Source of the DNA: Thermanaerosceptrum fracticalcis
Lineage (GTDB): Bacteria > Bacillota > Peptococcia > DRI-13
Assembly (NCBI RefSeq): GCF_000746025.2
Contig: NZ_CP045798.1
Span: 1,536,501 to 1,600,500, forward strand
Length of the DNA stretch: 64,000 bases
Direction: 5' to 3'
The position numbers were made by a program, and so were the translations under genes. The notes beneath the pieces are model-generated. The model searched no databases. It was not told the DNA's origin and saw nothing but the letters and a program-made list of their open reading frames with translations. Shown here piece after piece: positions 8,129-15,807 of this stretch. The first letter of the stretch is position 1. Each line of letters opens with the position of its first letter.

Positions 8129-9496
8129 CTATCCTGTTGTAAGGGGTAACCTGATGGTAAATTCCGTCCCTTTGCCTGCATGACTTTCCACACCAATGGT
8201 GCCACCGTGGGCTTCCACAAATCCCTTGGCTATAGCCAGTCCTAACCCCGTCCCCCCGCTCATGCGGTTTCTGGACTTGTCTCCCCGGTAGAAACGATCA
8301 AAAATATAGGGGAGGTCTTCAGACTCAATGCCAGGGCCGTTGTCAGAGACTTTGATCAAGAGCTGGTTTTCTTCCCTTTTTAAATCCACAAAAATCCTAC
8401 CGCCTCGCGGAACATAACGGAGGGCATTACTGAGGAGATTGATGAGTACCTGCCGTATTCTACCTTTGTCCAAGTAAACAAAAGGCAGGTTATTTTCCGC
8501 CCGTAAACTCATCTCCACATCTTTTTCCTTTGCCTCTGCCTCAAACAGGGCGAGGGTCTCCTGGGCGAATTTGACCGTATTTACCTCCTGTTTAGAAAGG
8601 GGCAGCTGTTTTGCTTCTGCCAAACTCAACTGCTGCAAGTCATCGACCAGGCCACGCAGGCGTAAAACCTCGTCATGCAAAGAGGTGATGTTTTCCGGTG
8701 TAATCTCTTCAATACCTTCCTGCATGGATTCTAAATGCCCACTCAAAATGGTCAGGGGGGTTCTTAACTCATGAGCCACATCAGCTACCAGTTCCCGCCG
8801 CAGTTTTTCCTGGCGTGACAGGTTTTCCGCCATGTTATTGAAGGCGGCAAAAACCTCACCAAAATCGGGATTCCCTTTAACTTCCAGGCGATGGGTGAGA
8901 TTGCCCTGGGAAAATTCCCGGGCCGCCCTGACCAAATTCTGTAGCGGTGCTAAGAGAGCCCTGGATAAACCAAGCCCTAAAAGAACCGCAATGAAGATAG
9001 ACAAGGCTGTTCCCCAGACAATAGAACGAAGTACCGAAGTGGTAAACTGACTCTCCAGGTTCCTGCTCCCCCACAATTGAATATCCAGAGGCAAAAGATA
9101 AGCAATGGCCTCCCCCTTACTTTTTACGGGGTATTTTACTTTCTCATTTTCCAGGGAAACCCTTTCCCCTATTTCCCGCGCAAGAGGGTGCCAGAGGACA
9201 CGTCCGGCGGTGTCGCTAAGATAAAAAGATACTCCTCCCATGCCCCGCATCATGGGACCCCGGCCCATACCTCCCCGGGGCATTCCCAGGATTATTTCCA
9301 CCCCCTGAAAACTGCCGCTTTCCCCGTAATATTCTCCTAACTGTTCAGCAAGGCGCAGGGCTTGGGCTTCCTGTGCCTGTCCCACATAACGGTTAAACTG
9401 GGTGGTAGTATTATGAAGGGCCAGGCCTCCGCTTATTATCCCTGTAAGAAGGACCATACCTACTACCAGGAGAATCAACCGTGTGGACCATCTCAT
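8129..9496 (-). CDS. Membrane sensor histidine kinase with Met/Gly/Arg-rich periplasmic segment
   Basis: A 455-aa kinase of the OmpR/PhoR type. TM1 spans about residues 7-28 and the extracytoplasmic domain about 29-155. A second TM lies near 157-178, followed by HAMP, HisKA (H-box VAHELRTPLTIL) and HATPase (DNGPGI, GTGLGLAIAKG). Residues 71-88 read GMPRGGMGRGPMMRGMGG, very unusual for a sensor domain. A similar segment occurs in the secreted protein encoded upstream at 10285-10845. The start overlaps the response regulator stop (ATGA), so the pair is translationally coupled. Methionine-rich stretches often bind copper or silver, but metal sensing here is inference. Confidence 0.93.
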   Translation of the reverse strand: MRWSTRLILLVVGMVLLTGIISGGLALHNTTTQFNRYVGQAQEAQALRLAEQLGEYYGESGSFQGVEIILGMPRGGMGRGPMMRGMGGVSFYLSDTAGRVLWHPLAREIGERVSLENEKVKYPVKSKGEAIAYLLPLDIQLWGSRNLESQFTTSVLRSIVWGTALSIFIAVLLGLGLSRALLAPLQNLVRAAREFSQGNLTHRLEVKGNPDFGEVFAAFNNMAENLSRQEKLRRELVADVAHELRTPLTILSGHLESMQEGIEEITPENITSLHDEVLRLRGLVDDLQQLSLAEAKQLPLSKQEVNTVKFAQETLALFEAEAKEKDVEMSLRAENNLPFVYLDKGRIRQVLINLLSNALRYVPRGGRIFVDLKREENQLLIKVSDNGPGIESEDLPYIFDRFYRGDKSRNRMSGGTGLGLAIAKGFVEAHGGTIGVESHAGKGTEFTIRLPLTTG

Positions 9497-10185
9497 ACCT
9501 TTTCACCAAACTTATAACCAATACCATATACCGTTTGGATATAGTAAGGTTCGGCAGGATTGGGTTCAATCTTTTTACGTAAATTGCTCACATGAGTGTC
9601 AATAACTCTCTCATAACCCAGGTAGCTTTCGTCCAGGGCCATATTTAAGAGCTGCAGCCGGGAGTAGGGCCTCCCCGGGTGCCTGGCCAAAATGTATAAA
9701 ATGTTGTATTCCGTTGGCGTAAGGGGAATTAGTTCTCCCTTCACCTTAACTTCCCGTTTCACAGGGTCTATCTGCAAATCCCCCCGTATCATTACCTGTT
9801 CCTCTTGTTTTTCGCTATACTGCGTGGTACGCCGCAGCACCGCCCTTAAACGTGCCGATAATTCTTTGAGACTAAAAGGTTTGGTTATATAGTCATCAGC
9901 TCCCAGTTCCAGACCCAGGAGTTTATCAATTTCTTCTGTCTTGGCCGTCAACATGATAATGGGAACTGTAGAATTCTTCCTGATTTCCTTGCAGACATCC
10001 AGTCCATTCATACCGGGAAGCATTAAATCAAGGATCACAGCATGAGGCTGAGCCTGCCCGAAAAGGCGCAGGGCTTCATTACCTTCCTGAGCTGTAGTCA
10101 CTGTGAATCCCTCATTTTTGAGAAAATTTTCTATCATGGAAAGAATTTTAGGCTCATCATCAACAACCAGTACGTGATACTCCAT
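9493..10185 (-). CDS. OmpR-family DNA-binding response regulator
   Basis: A 230-aa two-domain regulator. The receiver carries the acidic pair in VVDDEPK, phospho-acceptor Asp in VILDLMLPG and Lys in ITKPFS. The C-terminal winged helix ends with the usual ERVIDTHVSNLRKKIEPNP and IQTVYGIGYKF. GGAGG precedes ATG 10185. It is coupled to the kinase by a 4-bp overlap. A 22-bp-spaced direct repeat TTAAGAAA at 10894-10923, upstream of the secreted-protein gene, is a plausible binding site. Direct repeats spaced by a multiple of 11 bp are typical for this family. Confidence 0.95.
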   Translation of the reverse strand: MEYHVLVVDDEPKILSMIENFLKNEGFTVTTAQEGNEALRLFGQAQPHAVILDLMLPGMNGLDVCKEIRKNSTVPIIMLTAKTEEIDKLLGLELGADDYITKPFSLKELSARLRAVLRRTTQYSEKQEEQVMIRGDLQIDPVKREVKVKGELIPLTPTEYNILYILARHPGRPYSRLQLLNMALDESYLGYERVIDTHVSNLRKKIEPNPAEPYYIQTVYGIGYKFGEKV

Positions 10186-10200
10186 TTTCCCACCTCCGGA

Positions 10201-10240
10201 AAGTCAGTTGATAGTTGATAGTTGGTAGTTGGTAGTACAA
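10201..10240. repeat. Degenerate 7-bp repeat (AGTTGAT/AGTTGGT)
   Basis: Five near-identical heptamers (AGTTGAT twice, AGTTGGT twice, plus partial copies) lie between the response regulator start and the preceding terminator. The same style of low-complexity words recurs in other gaps of this window (35979-36056, 53180-53245, 59045-59084). Confidence 0.6.
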
Positions 10241-10243
10241 AGA

Positions 10244-10270
10244 AGGTTCCCGCAAAGCGGGAACCTTGCT
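10244..10270 (-). terminator. Rho-independent terminator after the secreted Met/Gly-rich protein gene
   Basis: AAGGTTCCCGC and GCGGGAACCTT form a perfect 11-bp stem with a short loop, between the stop at 10285 and the response regulator start. On the minus strand it is followed by TTCTTTG. It may allow partial read-through into the two-component genes. Confidence 0.65.
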
Positions 10271-10284
10271 ATTTATACTTTAGC

Positions 10285-10845
10285 TTACAATCTTGCACCC
10301 GTAAACCCCTGGGGAGCAGTTCCAGTGGATCCTCCCCAGCAGCCGCCGCAGCCACCAAATCCTCTTCTGCCCCCAAAACCTTGGCCCGGCACAAATTTGT
10401 TCTCTAACATCACCTGTACACGTTCAGACATGAATTTTTGCATATCCTGGGCTTGTTCACTGGTAATCCTCTTGTCTTTAACCAGTTGATCTAAGTACTC
10501 TTGATGTTTGGCCAGAAGTTTAGTTTTCACTTCCTCCACGGACATACCTTTTTCCTTGGCAATATCCCCATAGGATTTTCCTTCTGCCAGTTTAGTTCTT
10601 AAGGTAGCCCAGTCCATTCCTAAAATGTCGGCAATCTGGCCTGGCATAAAACCAGCGCCCCTCATACCAGGTCCTCCCTGCATACCTCCGCGGCCCATAC
10701 CCGGAGTCCACCCATTACCAGTGTTCTGACGCCAGCCGGGAAACCAGGTATTATCTGCGGCTTTAGCTTTCATCGGGGGCAGAAAGGTTACCGTGAGGAA
10801 AAGTACCAGCAAAACAGCCAGAGCCCCGTAAATAAATTTTCTCAT
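10285..10845 (-). CDS. Secreted Met/Gly-rich protein, DUF2680-like
   Basis: A 186-aa exported protein with an ideal AAGGAGGTGA ribosome site. Residues 1-30 form a signal peptide ending AKAA. Residues 48-68 are Met/Gly/Arg-rich (GMGRGGMQGGPGMRGAGFMPG). The middle (70-150) is a charged helical region (LRTKLAEGKSYGDIAKEKGM...EQAQDMQKFMSERV) similar to small secreted DUF2680/YckD-like proteins. The tail is Gly-rich with a CGGC motif. It shares its Met/Gly/Arg signature with the sensor domain of the kinase two genes downstream. A role as a metal chaperone or accessory ligand for that kinase is inference; the function is unknown. Confidence 0.8.
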   Translation of the reverse strand: MRKFIYGALAVLLVLFLTVTFLPPMKAKAADNTWFPGWRQNTGNGWTPGMGRGGMQGGPGMRGAGFMPGQIADILGMDWATLRTKLAEGKSYGDIAKEKGMSVEEVKTKLLAKHQEYLDQLVKDKRITSEQAQDMQKFMSERVQVMLENKFVPGQGFGGRRGFGGCGGCWGGSTGTAPQGFTGARL

Positions 10846-10893
10846 TTTAGGTCACCTCCTTTTGTTCTTACTCTTATTTTAGCCCCTAACTCA

Positions 10894-10923
10894 TTAAGAA
10901 AGGTTCTGCCACTTCTTAAGAAA
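10894..10923. promoter_or_regulatory. Direct repeat TTAAGAAA, 22-bp period (candidate OmpR-type operator)
   Basis: TTAAGAAA occurs at 10894-10901 and 10916-10923, two helical turns apart, about 50-80 bp upstream of the secreted-protein start. The spacing suits tandem binding of an OmpR-family dimer, most simply the regulator at 9493-10185. Confidence 0.4.
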
Positions 10924-10985
10924 TTGTCAAGATTTTAAAATTTGCTTGGGAAGCAGGAATTTACCGAGGACTCCCGAATAACTAA

Positions 10986-11005
10986 GTGTGCAAATTAGTT
11001 CACAC
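10986..11005. promoter_or_regulatory. Candidate AtoC binding site upstream of atoS
   Basis: GTGTGCAAATTAGTTCACAC is an imperfect dyad (GTGTG...CACAC). It matches the 20-bp element GTGTGCAAAACCATGCACAC upstream of atoE at 14302-14321 in 14 of 20 positions, including both arms. A shared dyad in front of atoSC and atoEDA suggests binding by AtoC and autoregulation. Confidence 0.45.
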
Positions 11006-11072
11006 CTTATTTTCCTCGCCCCCCGATTTCCGAAAATTCATTAATTTAGTAATTACTGAAGGTGATATTACC

Positions 11073-12887
11073 ATGTATCGAAAAACATCGTTACGGGTTC
11101 GCCTGATTATCATCCTGCTCTTAACCGTAACTGTGCCTATCATCGTTACGGGCTACTTTATGATGAACAGAGCGAAAACAGCTTTACTCAACGAAAAACA
11201 AGCTAAACTCTTCGGTTATGCCCGCCTGCTGGATATTTATCTGGAAGGCACCTATGACGATATCCTGGCCAAAGAAGGGGCCCTTACCGCTGATCGAGCC
11301 ACCAAAATAAATATCCTTAACCAGGCCCTCCAGTCTTATACAGATCAGGTGGCTGCCGCTCACCCCGGATTGGGTATTGGTTATTATTCTAAAGATTTAG
11401 ACGCCATCCTAACCTATGGTCCCAGTACAGAGTTTGGCTATACCGTGGGCCAGTCTATCTTTCCCGGCCACCAGGGCTATACCGTCATGGCTACGGGAAA
11501 AGAAATGGTCCAGTTAGGGAAACTGGTGCGGGGTCCTATTATGAACTGCATGGTTCCTATTATTCGTAACGGGAAAATTATCGGATATATCTGGGCCAAT
11601 GAGTTATTAGAGGACATAGAAGGACAAATCGCCGGTATGGAGAGTAAAGTCTACGATACCATTATTATTGGGTTATTCTGCGCCTTGATCACGGCCTATT
11701 TTATGACCGGGAATATCGCCCGGGACGTAGAAGTCATCAAAAACGGGCTTAAGATCCTTCACAAAAATATGTCCCATCGCCTTCCTCCCTTACGGGGGGA
11801 AATGGGGGAAATAGCGGGTGCTATCAATGAAATGGCTGACGCCATGACCAATATGAAGCATCACACAGAAAACATCGTAGCCAGTACACCCAACGGCCTC
11901 TTTACCTTAAATGAGCAGGGCCACATTACCATTTACAACCTGCCCTGTGAACGGATTACCGGTATCCCTGCCAAAGACGCCATAGATAACCATTATCGTC
12001 ACGTATTTCAGCCCTGGTCGGAGATAATGAAAATCCTCGACCAATCCTTCGAGGGTGAATTATATCAAAACAAAGAATTGACTATAAGCGTAAATAAACA
12101 ACAAGTCCCTATCCTTTTCACTACGACACCCCTTCTAAACAATAAGAATGAACAGATGGGGATTTTGGTCATCATGCGTGATCTTACCGATACCAAAAAA
12201 TTAGAAGAACAAGTACGCCGTGCTGACCGCCTGGCCGTCGTCGGAGAACTGGCAGCCGGTGTAGCCCATGAAGTCCGCAACCCCCTGACCGCCATTACCG
12301 GTTATCTCCAGCTTTTGGCCGTAGATTATCCCGAAGACGATCCCCGCCAGGAATTTACCCGTATTATCAGCAAAGAAATAGACCGCTTAAATCACCTGAT
12401 TGACCAGCTTCTCTATTTTTCACGTCCCTTGCCTCCTCAGTTTACGCTGGTGGATATTCATAAGATAATACAAGAAACACTGCTTCTAATCAATAACCTG
12501 GCGATACGGAAAAAAGTCACTATTCATACGGCTTTCGCCTCCAACCTGCCTTTGGTAAAAGTTGACCCTGTCCAGATCAAACAGGTATTACTCAATATCA
12601 TTCTCAATGGCATTCAAGCCATAGAAAGTACGGGGACCCTGACCCTGTGCACCGGTTTTGATTCCTCCAGCCAGCATATTTGTATAGAAATTATCGATAC
12701 AGGCACAGGCATCCCGCCGGAAAATATTCCCCGCCTTTTTGACCCTTTTTACACCACGAAAGAAAAAGGAACGGGTTTGGGCCTGGCTGTGGCCGATAAA
12801 ATCATGGAAGTCCACCAGGGGTATATAGAAGTTACCAGCGAGTTAGGCACTGGCACTTGTTTTGCCCTTTACTTACCAGTCAAATAG
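11073..12887 (+). CDS. atoS: Sensor histidine kinase of the AtoS type
   Basis: Membrane kinase that would sense acetoacetate or short-chain acids and phosphorylate AtoC. I chose ATG 11073 (604 aa, AAGGTG upstream). A GTG at 10986 in the same frame lies inside the candidate operator and would add an unlikely N-terminus. Order: TM1 (residues 8-30), extracytoplasmic Cache-like domain (35-190), TM2 (about 200-220), HAMP-like region, PAS (270-385), HisKA with GVAHEVRNPLTAI, HATPase with DTGTGI and GTGLGLAVADK. It is followed 13 bp later by atoC. The match to AtoS rests on architecture and neighbours rather than a search. Confidence 0.85.
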   Translation: MYRKTSLRVRLIIILLLTVTVPIIVTGYFMMNRAKTALLNEKQAKLFGYARLLDIYLEGTYDDILAKEGALTADRATKINILNQALQSYTDQVAAAHPGLGIGYYSKDLDAILTYGPSTEFGYTVGQSIFPGHQGYTVMATGKEMVQLGKLVRGPIMNCMVPIIRNGKIIGYIWANELLEDIEGQIAGMESKVYDTIIIGLFCALITAYFMTGNIARDVEVIKNGLKILHKNMSHRLPPLRGEMGEIAGAINEMADAMTNMKHHTENIVASTPNGLFTLNEQGHITIYNLPCERITGIPAKDAIDNHYRHVFQPWSEIMKILDQSFEGELYQNKELTISVNKQQVPILFTTTPLLNNKNEQMGILVIMRDLTDTKKLEEQVRRADRLAVVGELAAGVAHEVRNPLTAITGYLQLLAVDYPEDDPRQEFTRIISKEIDRLNHLIDQLLYFSRPLPPQFTLVDIHKIIQETLLLINNLAIRKKVTIHTAFASNLPLVKVDPVQIKQVLLNIILNGIQAIESTGTLTLCTGFDSSSQHICIEIIDTGTGIPPENIPRLFDPFYTTKEKGTGLGLAVADKIMEVHQGYIEVTSELGTGTCFALYLPVK

Positions 12888-12900
12888 GAGGTTAAGAAAC

Positions 12901-14283
12901 ATGACTAGTACCACTTATAATATTTTAGTTGCGGACGATGAACCCAGCGTCCAGTCCCTGCTGGAAAACATCCTGTTAAAAGAAGGTTATAACGTAATCC
13001 TTGCCGGCAATGGACAGGAGGCCGTGAACCGCTTTCGTCAATATTCCCCGGAACTGATTCTCCTAGATGTCCGTATGCCAGTTATGGATGGCCTGGAGGC
13101 TTTTAAAATCATTCGCCAGGAAAACCAGGAAGTTCTGATTATCATGATAACAGCTTACGGTACCATTGAAACAGCAGTCCAGGCCATGAAAATGGGGGCC
13201 TTTGATTATCTTGTAAAACCTTTTAACCTGGAAGAACTTAAGGTTGTCATCAAAAAAGCCCTGGAAATGTACAGTATGAGTTCCGAGCTACGAACCCTGC
13301 GCCGGGAATTCGCCGATAAATACAATCTGCAAAACATAGTCTTTAAAAGCAAAGCCATGCAGGAAGTGCTAAACCTGGCTGACATTGTGAGTAAGAGCGA
13401 TGCCACGGTCCTTTTGCGGGGTGAAAGCGGTACAGGAAAAGACCTGTTGGCCCGTTACATTCATTCCCGCAGTGCCAGGGCCCAGGGCCCCTTTATCAAG
13501 ATCCACTGCGGCGCCTTGCCCGAAACCCTGGTAGAGAGTGAACTTTTTGGCTATGAAAGAGGCGCCTTTACCGGTGCCACCACACGGAAGCCGGGAAAAT
13601 TTGAACTGGCCCGGGGTGGAACCCTCTTTCTCGATGAAATTGGTGAAATCAGCCCCAGTATCCAGGTAAAACTTTTACATGCCCTGCAATATAAGGAATT
13701 TGAACGCCTGGGTGGCACGGAAACCTTAAAAACAGACGCCCGGCTCATCGCCGCCACCAATAAAAACCTGGAAGAAGCCATGTCGAAAAAAGAGTTCAGG
13801 GAGGACCTTTTTTACCGCCTCAACGTTATTCCGATCTATCTTCCGCCCTTACGGGAACGCAAGGAAGACCTGCCTCATCTTGTGGACTATTTCGTCGGGC
13901 ATTTTTGCCAAAAACTAAAGCGCCCCCCTTTAACAGTGAGCCAGGAAACCATCACCCTTTTAACGGCTTACGACTGGCCGGGGAATATCAGGGAACTGGA
14001 AAACACTATAGAAAGGGCCGTTATATTAAGCACAGGTCCCCAAATCACCCCTCAGGTCCTGCCGCGCAGCATCAACAAATATAAAGACAGCCAGGCTCAA
14101 TTTTTTATTACGCCCACTGAACGCCCTCTTAGAGATGTCATGGCCGATATTGAGAAACAGATTATTAAAAAAGTCCTTCAAGAAACAGGGGGAAACCGTT
14201 CCAAAGCTGCCGAGAAACTGGGGATCAGCCGGCGAGCCCTCCATTACAAACTGGTAGAATACGGTTTCCAAAGCGAAGAATAA
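12901..14283 (+). CDS. atoC: Sigma-54 response regulator AtoC
   Basis: A 460-aa NtrC-class regulator. I used ATG 12901 because AGGAGG lies nine bases upstream; an earlier in-frame ATG overlaps the end of atoS. The receiver has ADDEPS, phospho-Asp in LILLDVRMPVMDG and Lys in LVKPFN. AAA+ has GESGTGKDLLA, GAFTGA and LFLDEIGEI. The C-terminal Fis helix-turn-helix reads GNRSKAAEKLGISRRALHYK. It is expected to activate the atoEDA promoter immediately downstream, where a sigma-54 sequence and a dyad are visible. Confidence 0.92.
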   Translation: MTSTTYNILVADDEPSVQSLLENILLKEGYNVILAGNGQEAVNRFRQYSPELILLDVRMPVMDGLEAFKIIRQENQEVLIIMITAYGTIETAVQAMKMGAFDYLVKPFNLEELKVVIKKALEMYSMSSELRTLRREFADKYNLQNIVFKSKAMQEVLNLADIVSKSDATVLLRGESGTGKDLLARYIHSRSARAQGPFIKIHCGALPETLVESELFGYERGAFTGATTRKPGKFELARGGTLFLDEIGEISPSIQVKLLHALQYKEFERLGGTETLKTDARLIAATNKNLEEAMSKKEFREDLFYRLNVIPIYLPPLRERKEDLPHLVDYFVGHFCQKLKRPPLTVSQETITLLTAYDWPGNIRELENTIERAVILSTGPQITPQVLPRSINKYKDSQAQFFITPTERPLRDVMADIEKQIIKKVLQETGGNRSKAAEKLGISRRALHYKLVEYGFQSEE

Positions 14284-14301
14284 TGCAAAGTTTTTCTCGC
14301 A

Positions 14302-14321
14302 GTGTGCAAAACCATGCACAC
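14302..14321. promoter_or_regulatory. Candidate AtoC upstream activating site (also a possible atoC terminator)
   Basis: GTGTGCAAAACCATGCACAC contains perfect 7-bp arms (GTGTGCA/TGCACAC). It lies 60 bp upstream of the sigma-54 promoter, the expected place for an enhancer. Six T residues follow, so it could also act as the atoC terminator. The related dyad upstream of atoS favours a protein-binding role. Confidence 0.5.
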
Positions 14322-14380
14322 TTTTTTATTGCTATGCTGTAGTTTCCTTGTTTTCCTTGGGTTCCAGCCGGTTACATCAT

Positions 14381-14396
14381 TGGCATGATTTTTGCA
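14381..14396 (+). promoter_or_regulatory. Sigma-54 promoter for atoEDA
   Basis: TGGCATGATTTTTGCA keeps the invariant GG and GC at sigma-54 spacing, with one deviation (T for C) from TGGCAC. It lies about 95 bp before the atoE start and just downstream of the AtoC-like dyad. Confidence 0.8.
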
Positions 14397-14490
14397 ATAA
14401 TACCTTTTAAAGAGTCTGCTGCTTGTCCGAGGGCTGAAGGAGGTGACGGGGTAATCTCGGAAGCAAAAACTCAAAAAAGGAGGAGCCATC

Positions 14491-15807
14491 ATGAAGAATC
14501 TTACCAAATTTTTCGTTAACATTGCCCAGAAATATTTACCTGATGCCTATCTTTTTGCCGTCTTACTTACTTTCATTGCTTATGTTTTGGCATTGGGACT
14601 TACCGGAAAAGGTCCTATGGAAATTCTGAAAGCCTGGGGCGATGGGTTATGGGGAATCCTGGCTTTTGCCATGCAGATGACCTTGATCCTGGTTACCGGG
14701 CATGCCATGGCCGCCAGCCCCGCAGTGCACAGTATCCTCAAATCATTAGCTGGCACTGCGAAAACCCCTGTACAGGGTGTTATGCTGGCAGCTTTTGTCA
14801 CTGGTCTCGCCAGTTTCCTCAACTGGGGTTTTGGCCTGGTCGTTGGTGCCCTCTTGGCCAGAGAAATTGCTAAGAATGTCCGGGGCATCGACTATGGCAT
14901 GCTGGTTGCTTCCGCCTACTCGGGTTTTGTGATCTGGCATGGCGGCATTTCCGGTTCTATCCCTTTGGCTTTGGCTACCAAAGGCCACCTGGTAGAAAAG
15001 CAAATCGGCATTGTTCCCGTAAGCCAAACGATTTTTGCCCCCTACAACCTGATTATAACTTTTGCCATTATCTTTACTGTTCCTATTCTTTTTAAATTCA
15101 TTGCCCAGAGTAAAGACGATGTGATCGAGATCAACCCCGCCCTCTTGGCCGAGGAGCCTGCTCCTACCGTGGAAGCTAATCCTACACCTGCAACTAAACT
15201 GGAGAACAGCAAAATCGTCACCTGGATCTTATGCCTCATGGGCTTTATCTATCTCTTTAACCATTTTGCCACGAAAGGCTTTGACCTGAACCTGAATATT
15301 GTAATTATGATCTTCCTCTTCGTCGGTCTTTTGCTCCACGGTACACCTATCAGTTATGTACGGGCCGTCAACCAGGCCATAAAGGGTGCCGGCGGTATTG
15401 CCCTGCAGTTCCCCCTCTACGGCGGTATCCAGGGTATCATGGTAGGGACAGGTTTAGCCGGTATTATTGCCAAGTGGTTTATCTCCATTTCCACCGTAAA
15501 GACCTTCCCCTTGTTAACGTTCCTGGCCGGCGGTGTCATTAACTTCTTCGTTCCTTCCGGCGGCGGCCAGTGGGTAGTTCAAGGTCCCATCAATATCCCG
15601 GCGGCTTTAGAAATAGGCGTTGATCCCACTGTGGTAGCCATGAGCATTGCTTACGGCGACCAGTGGACCAACATGATCCAACCCTTCTGGGCTCTACCTC
15701 TCCTGGGTATTGCCGGTTTGGGCATCCGTGACATCATGGGTTACTGTGTGATGACACTCCTCTGGAGCGGTCTCGTTATTGCTCTCGGATTATTGCTGTT
15801 AGTATAA
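14491..15807 (+). CDS. atoE: Short-chain fatty acid transporter AtoE
   Basis: A polytopic inner-membrane carrier of 438 aa for butyrate, acetoacetate and similar acids. The sequence is dominated by hydrophobic segments (about 10-12 predicted helices). Conserved-looking loops include SFLNWGFGLVVGALLARE, SGGGQWVVQGPI and GDQWTNMIQPFWALPLLGI, typical of the AtoE family. AAAGGAGG precedes ATG 14491. It heads an operon with the CoA-transferase genes, coupling uptake to activation. Confidence 0.92.
   Translation: MKNLTKFFVNIAQKYLPDAYLFAVLLTFIAYVLALGLTGKGPMEILKAWGDGLWGILAFAMQMTLILVTGHAMAASPAVHSILKSLAGTAKTPVQGVMLAAFVTGLASFLNWGFGLVVGALLAREIAKNVRGIDYGMLVASAYSGFVIWHGGISGSIPLALATKGHLVEKQIGIVPVSQTIFAPYNLIITFAIIFTVPILFKFIAQSKDDVIEINPALLAEEPAPTVEANPTPATKLENSKIVTWILCLMGFIYLFNHFATKGFDLNLNIVIMIFLFVGLLLHGTPISYVRAVNQAIKGAGGIALQFPLYGGIQGIMVGTGLAGIIAKWFISISTVKTFPLLTFLAGGVINFFVPSGGGQWVVQGPINIPAALEIGVDPTVVAMSIAYGDQWTNMIQPFWALPLLGIAGLGIRDIMGYCVMTLLWSGLVIALGLLLLV

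Follow-up and report, generated by a model that had tools for sequence, protein, structure and literature searches.

The locus and its Gly/Met/Arg-rich segments

The window, a 64 000-nucleotide stretch of Thermanaerosceptrum fracticalcis DNA (NZ_CP045798.1, positions 1,536,501 to 1,600,500), carries a trio of genes on its minus strand, read from 10845 to 8129, that encode an exported protein of 186 aa, an OmpR-type response regulator and a histidine kinase of 455 aa (Table 1). A first-pass annotation of this DNA had placed the secreted protein just upstream of the kinase; the two are indeed neighbours, but the response regulator gene intervenes. The exported-protein gene has its intergenic region in common with a divergent NtrB/NtrC-like pair. 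This pair consists of a sensor and a sigma-54 regulator; a gene for a short-chain fatty acid transporter-like protein comes next (window 10986–15807), giving an AtoSC-like layout.

Table 1. Features of the trio and of its upstream region, in window coordinates.
Feature	Position	Strand	Basis or remark
Exported protein, 186 aa, assigned to the DUF2680 superfamily	10285..10845	-	ORF, leave-out profile and AlphaFold
Order of parts in the exported protein			signal peptide, disordered G/M/R segment, helical core 68–148, disordered Gly-rich tail with CGGC
G/M/R-rich segment of the exported protein, GMGRGGMQGGPGMRGAG, residues 49–65	10651..10701	-	predicted disordered
CGGC of the exported protein, residues 166–169	10339..10350	-	kept in sister species only
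OmpR/PhoB-type response regulator	9493..10185	-	Pfam Response_reg and Trans_reg_C; BLASTP, 42% identity to E. coli BaeR
BaeS-like sensor histidine kinase: ectodomain, HAMP, HisKA, HATPase_c	8129..9496	-	
Sensor loop of the kinase, GMPRGGMGRGPMMRGMGG, residues 71–88	9233..9286	-	predicted disordered
Putative regulator box TCTTGACAATTTCTTAA, 11-bp direct repeat	10916..10932	-	some 87 bp ahead of the exported-protein gene
Additional repeat TTTCTTAATGAG, in register with TTTCTTAAGAAG at 22 bp	10890..10901	-	
Terminator-like hairpin in the gap that separates the exported-protein and regulator genes	10243..10267	-	

The loop of the kinase reads exactly as the annotation had given it and lies between two transmembrane segments, and the secreted protein carries both its G/M/R-rich segment and CGGC. 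Of the products that the ORFs of the window encode, 57 reach 100 aa, and these two proteins alone contain a 20-residue stretch with at least 11 G+M+R, their best counts being 16 (kinase) and 15 (exported protein). The G/M/R match of the two exceeds chance. When the whole genome was examined, one of 14 HAMP-domain matches had such a stretch in its ectodomain, and this was the kinase of the trio (16/20); the others scored 3–7 G+M+R per 20 residues where the ectodomain could be delimited.

The likeness of loop and tail is one of overall composition and not of residue order. CGGC is kept only in the sister species (92% identical), and a 42%-identical homologue has a single Cys at that place. Loss of the motif in orthologous kinase/DUF2680-like pairs was among the conditions under which the annotation would have given up its proposal; it did not occur, the pairs keeping the composition, though not the precise residues. 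Met is absent from the R/G-rich loops of some family members (for example PRPGWGRGGPGFPGRGG in L124), and in a second class of kinases the rich segment occupies a different position in the ectodomain.

Two further loci carry segments of this kind. In the genome of the window, a 162-aa exported protein with a C-terminal FRGPMGRGMMGR is encoded close to a HAMP kinase, with more G/M-rich small proteins nearby (L066, 2148000–2157000). The kinase of this locus (2.15 Mb) was rejected as part of a second loop/partner pair, its ectodomain having no G/M/R loop. At the other locus (L028:4159–6811), a G/M-tailed DUF2680 protein is encoded after a kinase of another type that has SMMMHHNMHQENF in its ectodomain; RND efflux genes are near, and there is no class A operator.

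The exported protein is a remote relative of DUF2680 proteins

The exported protein scored 13.2 bits against Pfam DUF2680 (PF10925), below the gathering cut-off of 25, and did not match Pfam LTXXQ. A profile of DUF2680-like proteins, built without the exported protein and its two closest homologues, found it at E=1e-24, and found the helical core alone at 4e-22; none of 300 shuffled sequences matched. The DUF2680-like identity proposed by the annotation thus stands with a profile from which the protein itself had been left out, and by profile evidence the exported protein is a remote member of the DUF2680 superfamily.

AlphaFold predicted helical core blocks (pLDDT 88–96), with values below 50 for residues 23–64 and 157–186. 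A Foldseek search of the PDB with the core returned no CpxP/Spy match and no match to known proteins. Sequence matches in the PDB to designed repeat proteins were discarded, as they rest on generic helical repeats. Among 35 partners scanned in related loci (see below), 21 matched DUF2680 (PF10925), five LTXXQ and three Metal_resist.

The kinase and the regulator are BaeSR-like

The kinase aligns with E. coli BaeS from residue 33 over 433 columns, ectodomain included, at 30% identity; the regulator aligns with BaeR (Table 1). Both fell below the NCBIfam equivalog cut-offs (BaeS, 270 bits versus 500; BaeR, 225 versus 380), and they are therefore classed as BaeSR-like rather than as orthologous BaeSR. 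Structural matches of the sensor-domain model (mean pLDDT 80) included a WalK model, CitA and the BaeS crystal structure, 5wvn, which ranked among the best (E=0.014, TMq 0.31). The G/M/R loop, with a pLDDT below 50, connects the first helix to the first strand, at the same spot as the loop EHDNSEDKPGPGMPPHGW of E. coli BaeS. His45, 65, 87 and 101 of BaeS have been reported to be jointly needed for copper binding and response (PMC4780735); two of these four, His87 and His101, fall within the EHDNSEDKPGPGMPPHGW loop.

A Peptococcaceae metagenome-assembled genome encodes a 93% identical sensor; by a single-protein search this is apparently the same contig as that of the sister genome.

The trio recurs across Bacillota

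A profile of the sensor domain, searched in 398 Bacillota genomes, gave roughly 100 strong relatives, each of which was examined in its gene neighbourhood. Kinases with at least eight G+M+R in 20 ectodomain residues were counted as loop-bearing. An exported partner that was G/M/R-rich or DUF2680-like was found near 46 of the 71 loop-bearing kinases, a count that includes six partners added by hand from outside the automatic distance rule, as compared with two of the 30 others (Fisher 4e-8); the other 25 loop-bearing kinases had no linked partner. After correction for the kinase tree the co-occurrence was not significant (PGLS p=0.24), and independent contrasts gave three concordant cases, no discordant case and 10 ties. 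The association of loop and partner is clade-level only, and co-occurrence was dropped as stand-alone proof because the Fisher value loses significance under phylogenetic correction.

An association confined to clades would fit the view that the G/M/R segments are ordinary flexible linkers, alike by convergence, in an ordinary BaeSR-like envelope-stress system, and G/M-rich DUF2680 tails do occur in genomes without a loop-bearing kinase. Against this, only one of 14 HAMP-domain matches has such a loop, and of 139 non-partner exported ORFs at these loci only four are G/M/R-rich. A neutral origin also conflicts with the covariation described below, which is specific to Met and vanishes in the control proteins. 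We consider such an origin rather unlikely.

A DUF2680-like protein was present in all 24 chosen genomes with the kinase class and partners and absent from four genomes whose f10-family kinases lack the loop, a comparison that is descriptive since the 24 were picked partly for known partners. At two f10 loci (L102, L103), a lipoprotein with a TRAP/TAXI-type solute-binding look is encoded 0–30 nt ahead of the regulator of the loop-less kinase, as if the sensor had swapped its partner.

A common putative operator and a terminator-like hairpin

Direct repeats in the upstream regions of the partner genes peak at a spacing of 11 bp (z=3.4), and also at 22 bp (2.0). With up to three mismatches, the BaeR-like motif TCTTRASAATTTCTTRA precedes 34 of 48 partners (16 of 22 families) as compared with 7% of 751 other ORFs; it was derived partly from these same promoters, so that tests outside this set are the stronger ones. 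In the genome of the window, the only exact site is that of the exported-protein gene of the trio, and a second G/M-tailed DUF2680 gene, present twice (124 and 137 kb), has the only two sites with one mismatch, one ahead of each copy. No metal gene was present among the targets with zero or one mismatch in this genome. Sites with two mismatches were set aside as no more frequent than expected by chance (a total of 21 matches, against 19 when the pattern was reversed). Across genomes, the operator was found before seven of seven unlinked G/M-rich DUF2680 genes where the loop-bearing kinase class is present, as compared with four of 21 in controls (hypergeometric estimate p ~0.0003, some of the entries being related).

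The two copies of the second G/M-tailed DUF2680 gene, which have the same predicted operator, are about 12.9 kb apart (around 124.2 and 137.1 kb; L002, L003, L032, L067) and represent a repeat of at least part of that region. A fourth DUF2680-like gene (128 aa, L068:4515–4898) encodes no rich tail and has no operator; it is divergent from another two-component system.

The more general motif TCTYNANAA was present ahead of 37 of 47 partners and 69 of 704 controls, and the BaeR box TCTNCANAA ahead of 13 of 47 and 25 of 704, respectively. The main class, including the window, has TCTTRANAA. TCTNCANAA is the published BaeR consensus, and the E. coli spy promoter has three such boxes. The exact site partly contains TTGACA, and a −35 element could add to the conservation in some loci.

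A terminator-like hairpin separates the partner and regulator genes in 25 of 33 related loci, as compared with about 2% in shuffles. With this hairpin between the genes, the exported protein should be made in excess over the two regulators.

The annotation had suggested a three-gene sensing unit. Recurrence across Bacillota, the common operator, the paralogues apparently regulated in trans and the terminator between partner and regulators all speak for it, and a regulatory unit is well supported by sequence.

Methionine content of loop and tail covaries

In an exploratory test, the best 24-residue G/M/R segment of the ectodomain was compared with that of the partner. Over 48 kinase–partner pairs, the Met fraction of the former predicted that of the latter (PGLS slope 0.46, p=0.00016), while none of nine other residues covaried in the same PGLS on the same pairs. 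The covariation held when local Met and GC were entered as covariates (p=0.0003), between family means (n=22, r=0.54, p=0.009) and within the main class (n=35, p=0.002), and was borderline among the 13 pairs of the second class (p=0.05). It faded as segments were widened to 30 (p=0.024) and 40 residues (p=0.09), and the value for whole domains was p=0.057. Met of the cytoplasmic part of the kinase and Met of other proteins of the locus, used as controls, gave null results. An initial test on family means (40 pairs) had shown Arg, His and Trp to covary, which PGLS did not bear out.

The annotation had read the repeated motif as a sign of a common ligand, of copper or silver type, or of direct interaction. 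The Met covariation supports this disjunction indirectly; on the other side, the neighbourhood shows no sign of metal transport, and none of the 25 commonest Pfam families of 81 proteins near trios is a metal-transport family.

Were the interaction direct, the exported protein would bind the ectodomain in feedback, as CpxP does with CpxA, and the matched segments would be the contact itself or competitors for the same dock, with no small ligand in common. Matched Met could then reflect co-evolving contact surfaces; both segments are predicted to be disordered, and the regulator seems to have the exported protein as its chief target. A contact is harder to reconcile with a match of composition that does not extend to residue order, with a DUF2680 core fold that found no CpxP/Spy counterpart in the PDB, and with the 25/71 loop-bearing kinases that have no linked partner. 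On balance we regard direct contact as unlikely.

A proposed circuit

The reading that we prefer, and to which we give slightly less than an even chance, is a BaeSR-type envelope-stress two-component system that has an abundant exported DUF2680-type protein, or several of them, as its main output, with loop and tail engaging the same extracytoplasmic agent. That they would meet the same agent is inferred from the matched composition and the Met covariation. Binding of the agent to the loop would activate the kinase, the regulator would then raise production of the exported protein, and the exported tails would absorb the agent and turn the signal off. In Met-rich members, the most likely agent would be a soft ligand that binds thioethers, Cu(I) or Ag(I) for example.

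A copper- or silver-type ligand is plausible, a soft metal being the leading candidate because of the thioethers and of the copper data on BaeS. Since some members have Met-free R/G loops, no metal bound through Met can serve as ligand throughout the family. Arg beside Met is not known to be typical of a cuprous site. More tentatively, the kinase loop may imitate in its composition the tail of the regulon product, the two competing for one agent, so that feedback would be tuned by lineage through Met content; this extension is possible, if doubtful.

Methionines in loop and tail could alternatively be targets or sponges of oxidants, to which the system would respond. E. coli BaeSR responds to chlorite and the disordered N-terminal Met cluster of Spy has been proposed as an oxidant sponge, but the N-terminal Met of Spy can be replaced and function kept (PMC12503329). 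Oxidation would leave the Gly/Arg richness unexplained, and the hosts appear to be clostridial and, from their inferred lifestyle, probably anaerobic. We hold oxidant sensing to be improbable.

Relation to known systems

The nearest described analogue of the trio is E. coli BaeS–BaeR–Spy. The two are alike in full-length kinase and regulator homology, in the position of the loop in the ectodomain, in a small exported target with a disordered Met-rich segment and possibly in TCTNCANAA-type boxes at the target promoter. They differ in that the target here is mostly of DUF2680 type and not of the Spy fold, is usually encoded in the same operon and is separated from the regulators by a terminator; the main-class operator here is TCTTRANAA at 11-bp spacing, and the window has no linked efflux genes. 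As in CpxP–CpxR–CpxA, a small helical exported protein is encoded with a two-component system and feedback is probable; unlike that system, the kinase is BaeS-like, the partner fold is not that of CpxP in most loci, and the feedback is putative. ZraP–ZraS–ZraR likewise combines an exported accessory protein with a two-component system, and the Metal_resist matches (3/35 scanned partners) recall it, but ZraR is of sigma-54 type whereas the regulator here is of OmpR type, and nothing points to zinc. The metal sponges SilE and PcoE share a disordered Met-rich exported protein under two-component control; here, in contrast, there are no His motifs and no linked efflux genes, and metal binding is only putative.

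The unit had been called possibly undescribed, which holds in part, its regulatory core being of BaeS/BaeR type. BaeSR–Spy and CpxP-type circuits are known already; no Bacillota counterpart of BaeSR–Spy was found in the literature searched. As far as the literature searched shows, three things are new: a Bacillota version whose targets are DUF2680 proteins, an operator that they have in common, and the Met match between sensor and product.

DUF2680, a family of unknown function that a single paper in the literature searched mentions, would thereby gain a regulatory role and a testable partner. The signal read by BaeS-type sensors is still debated, and the matched loop and tail single out a specific, mutable element in them. 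The Met covariation makes the idea of a shared ligand directly testable.
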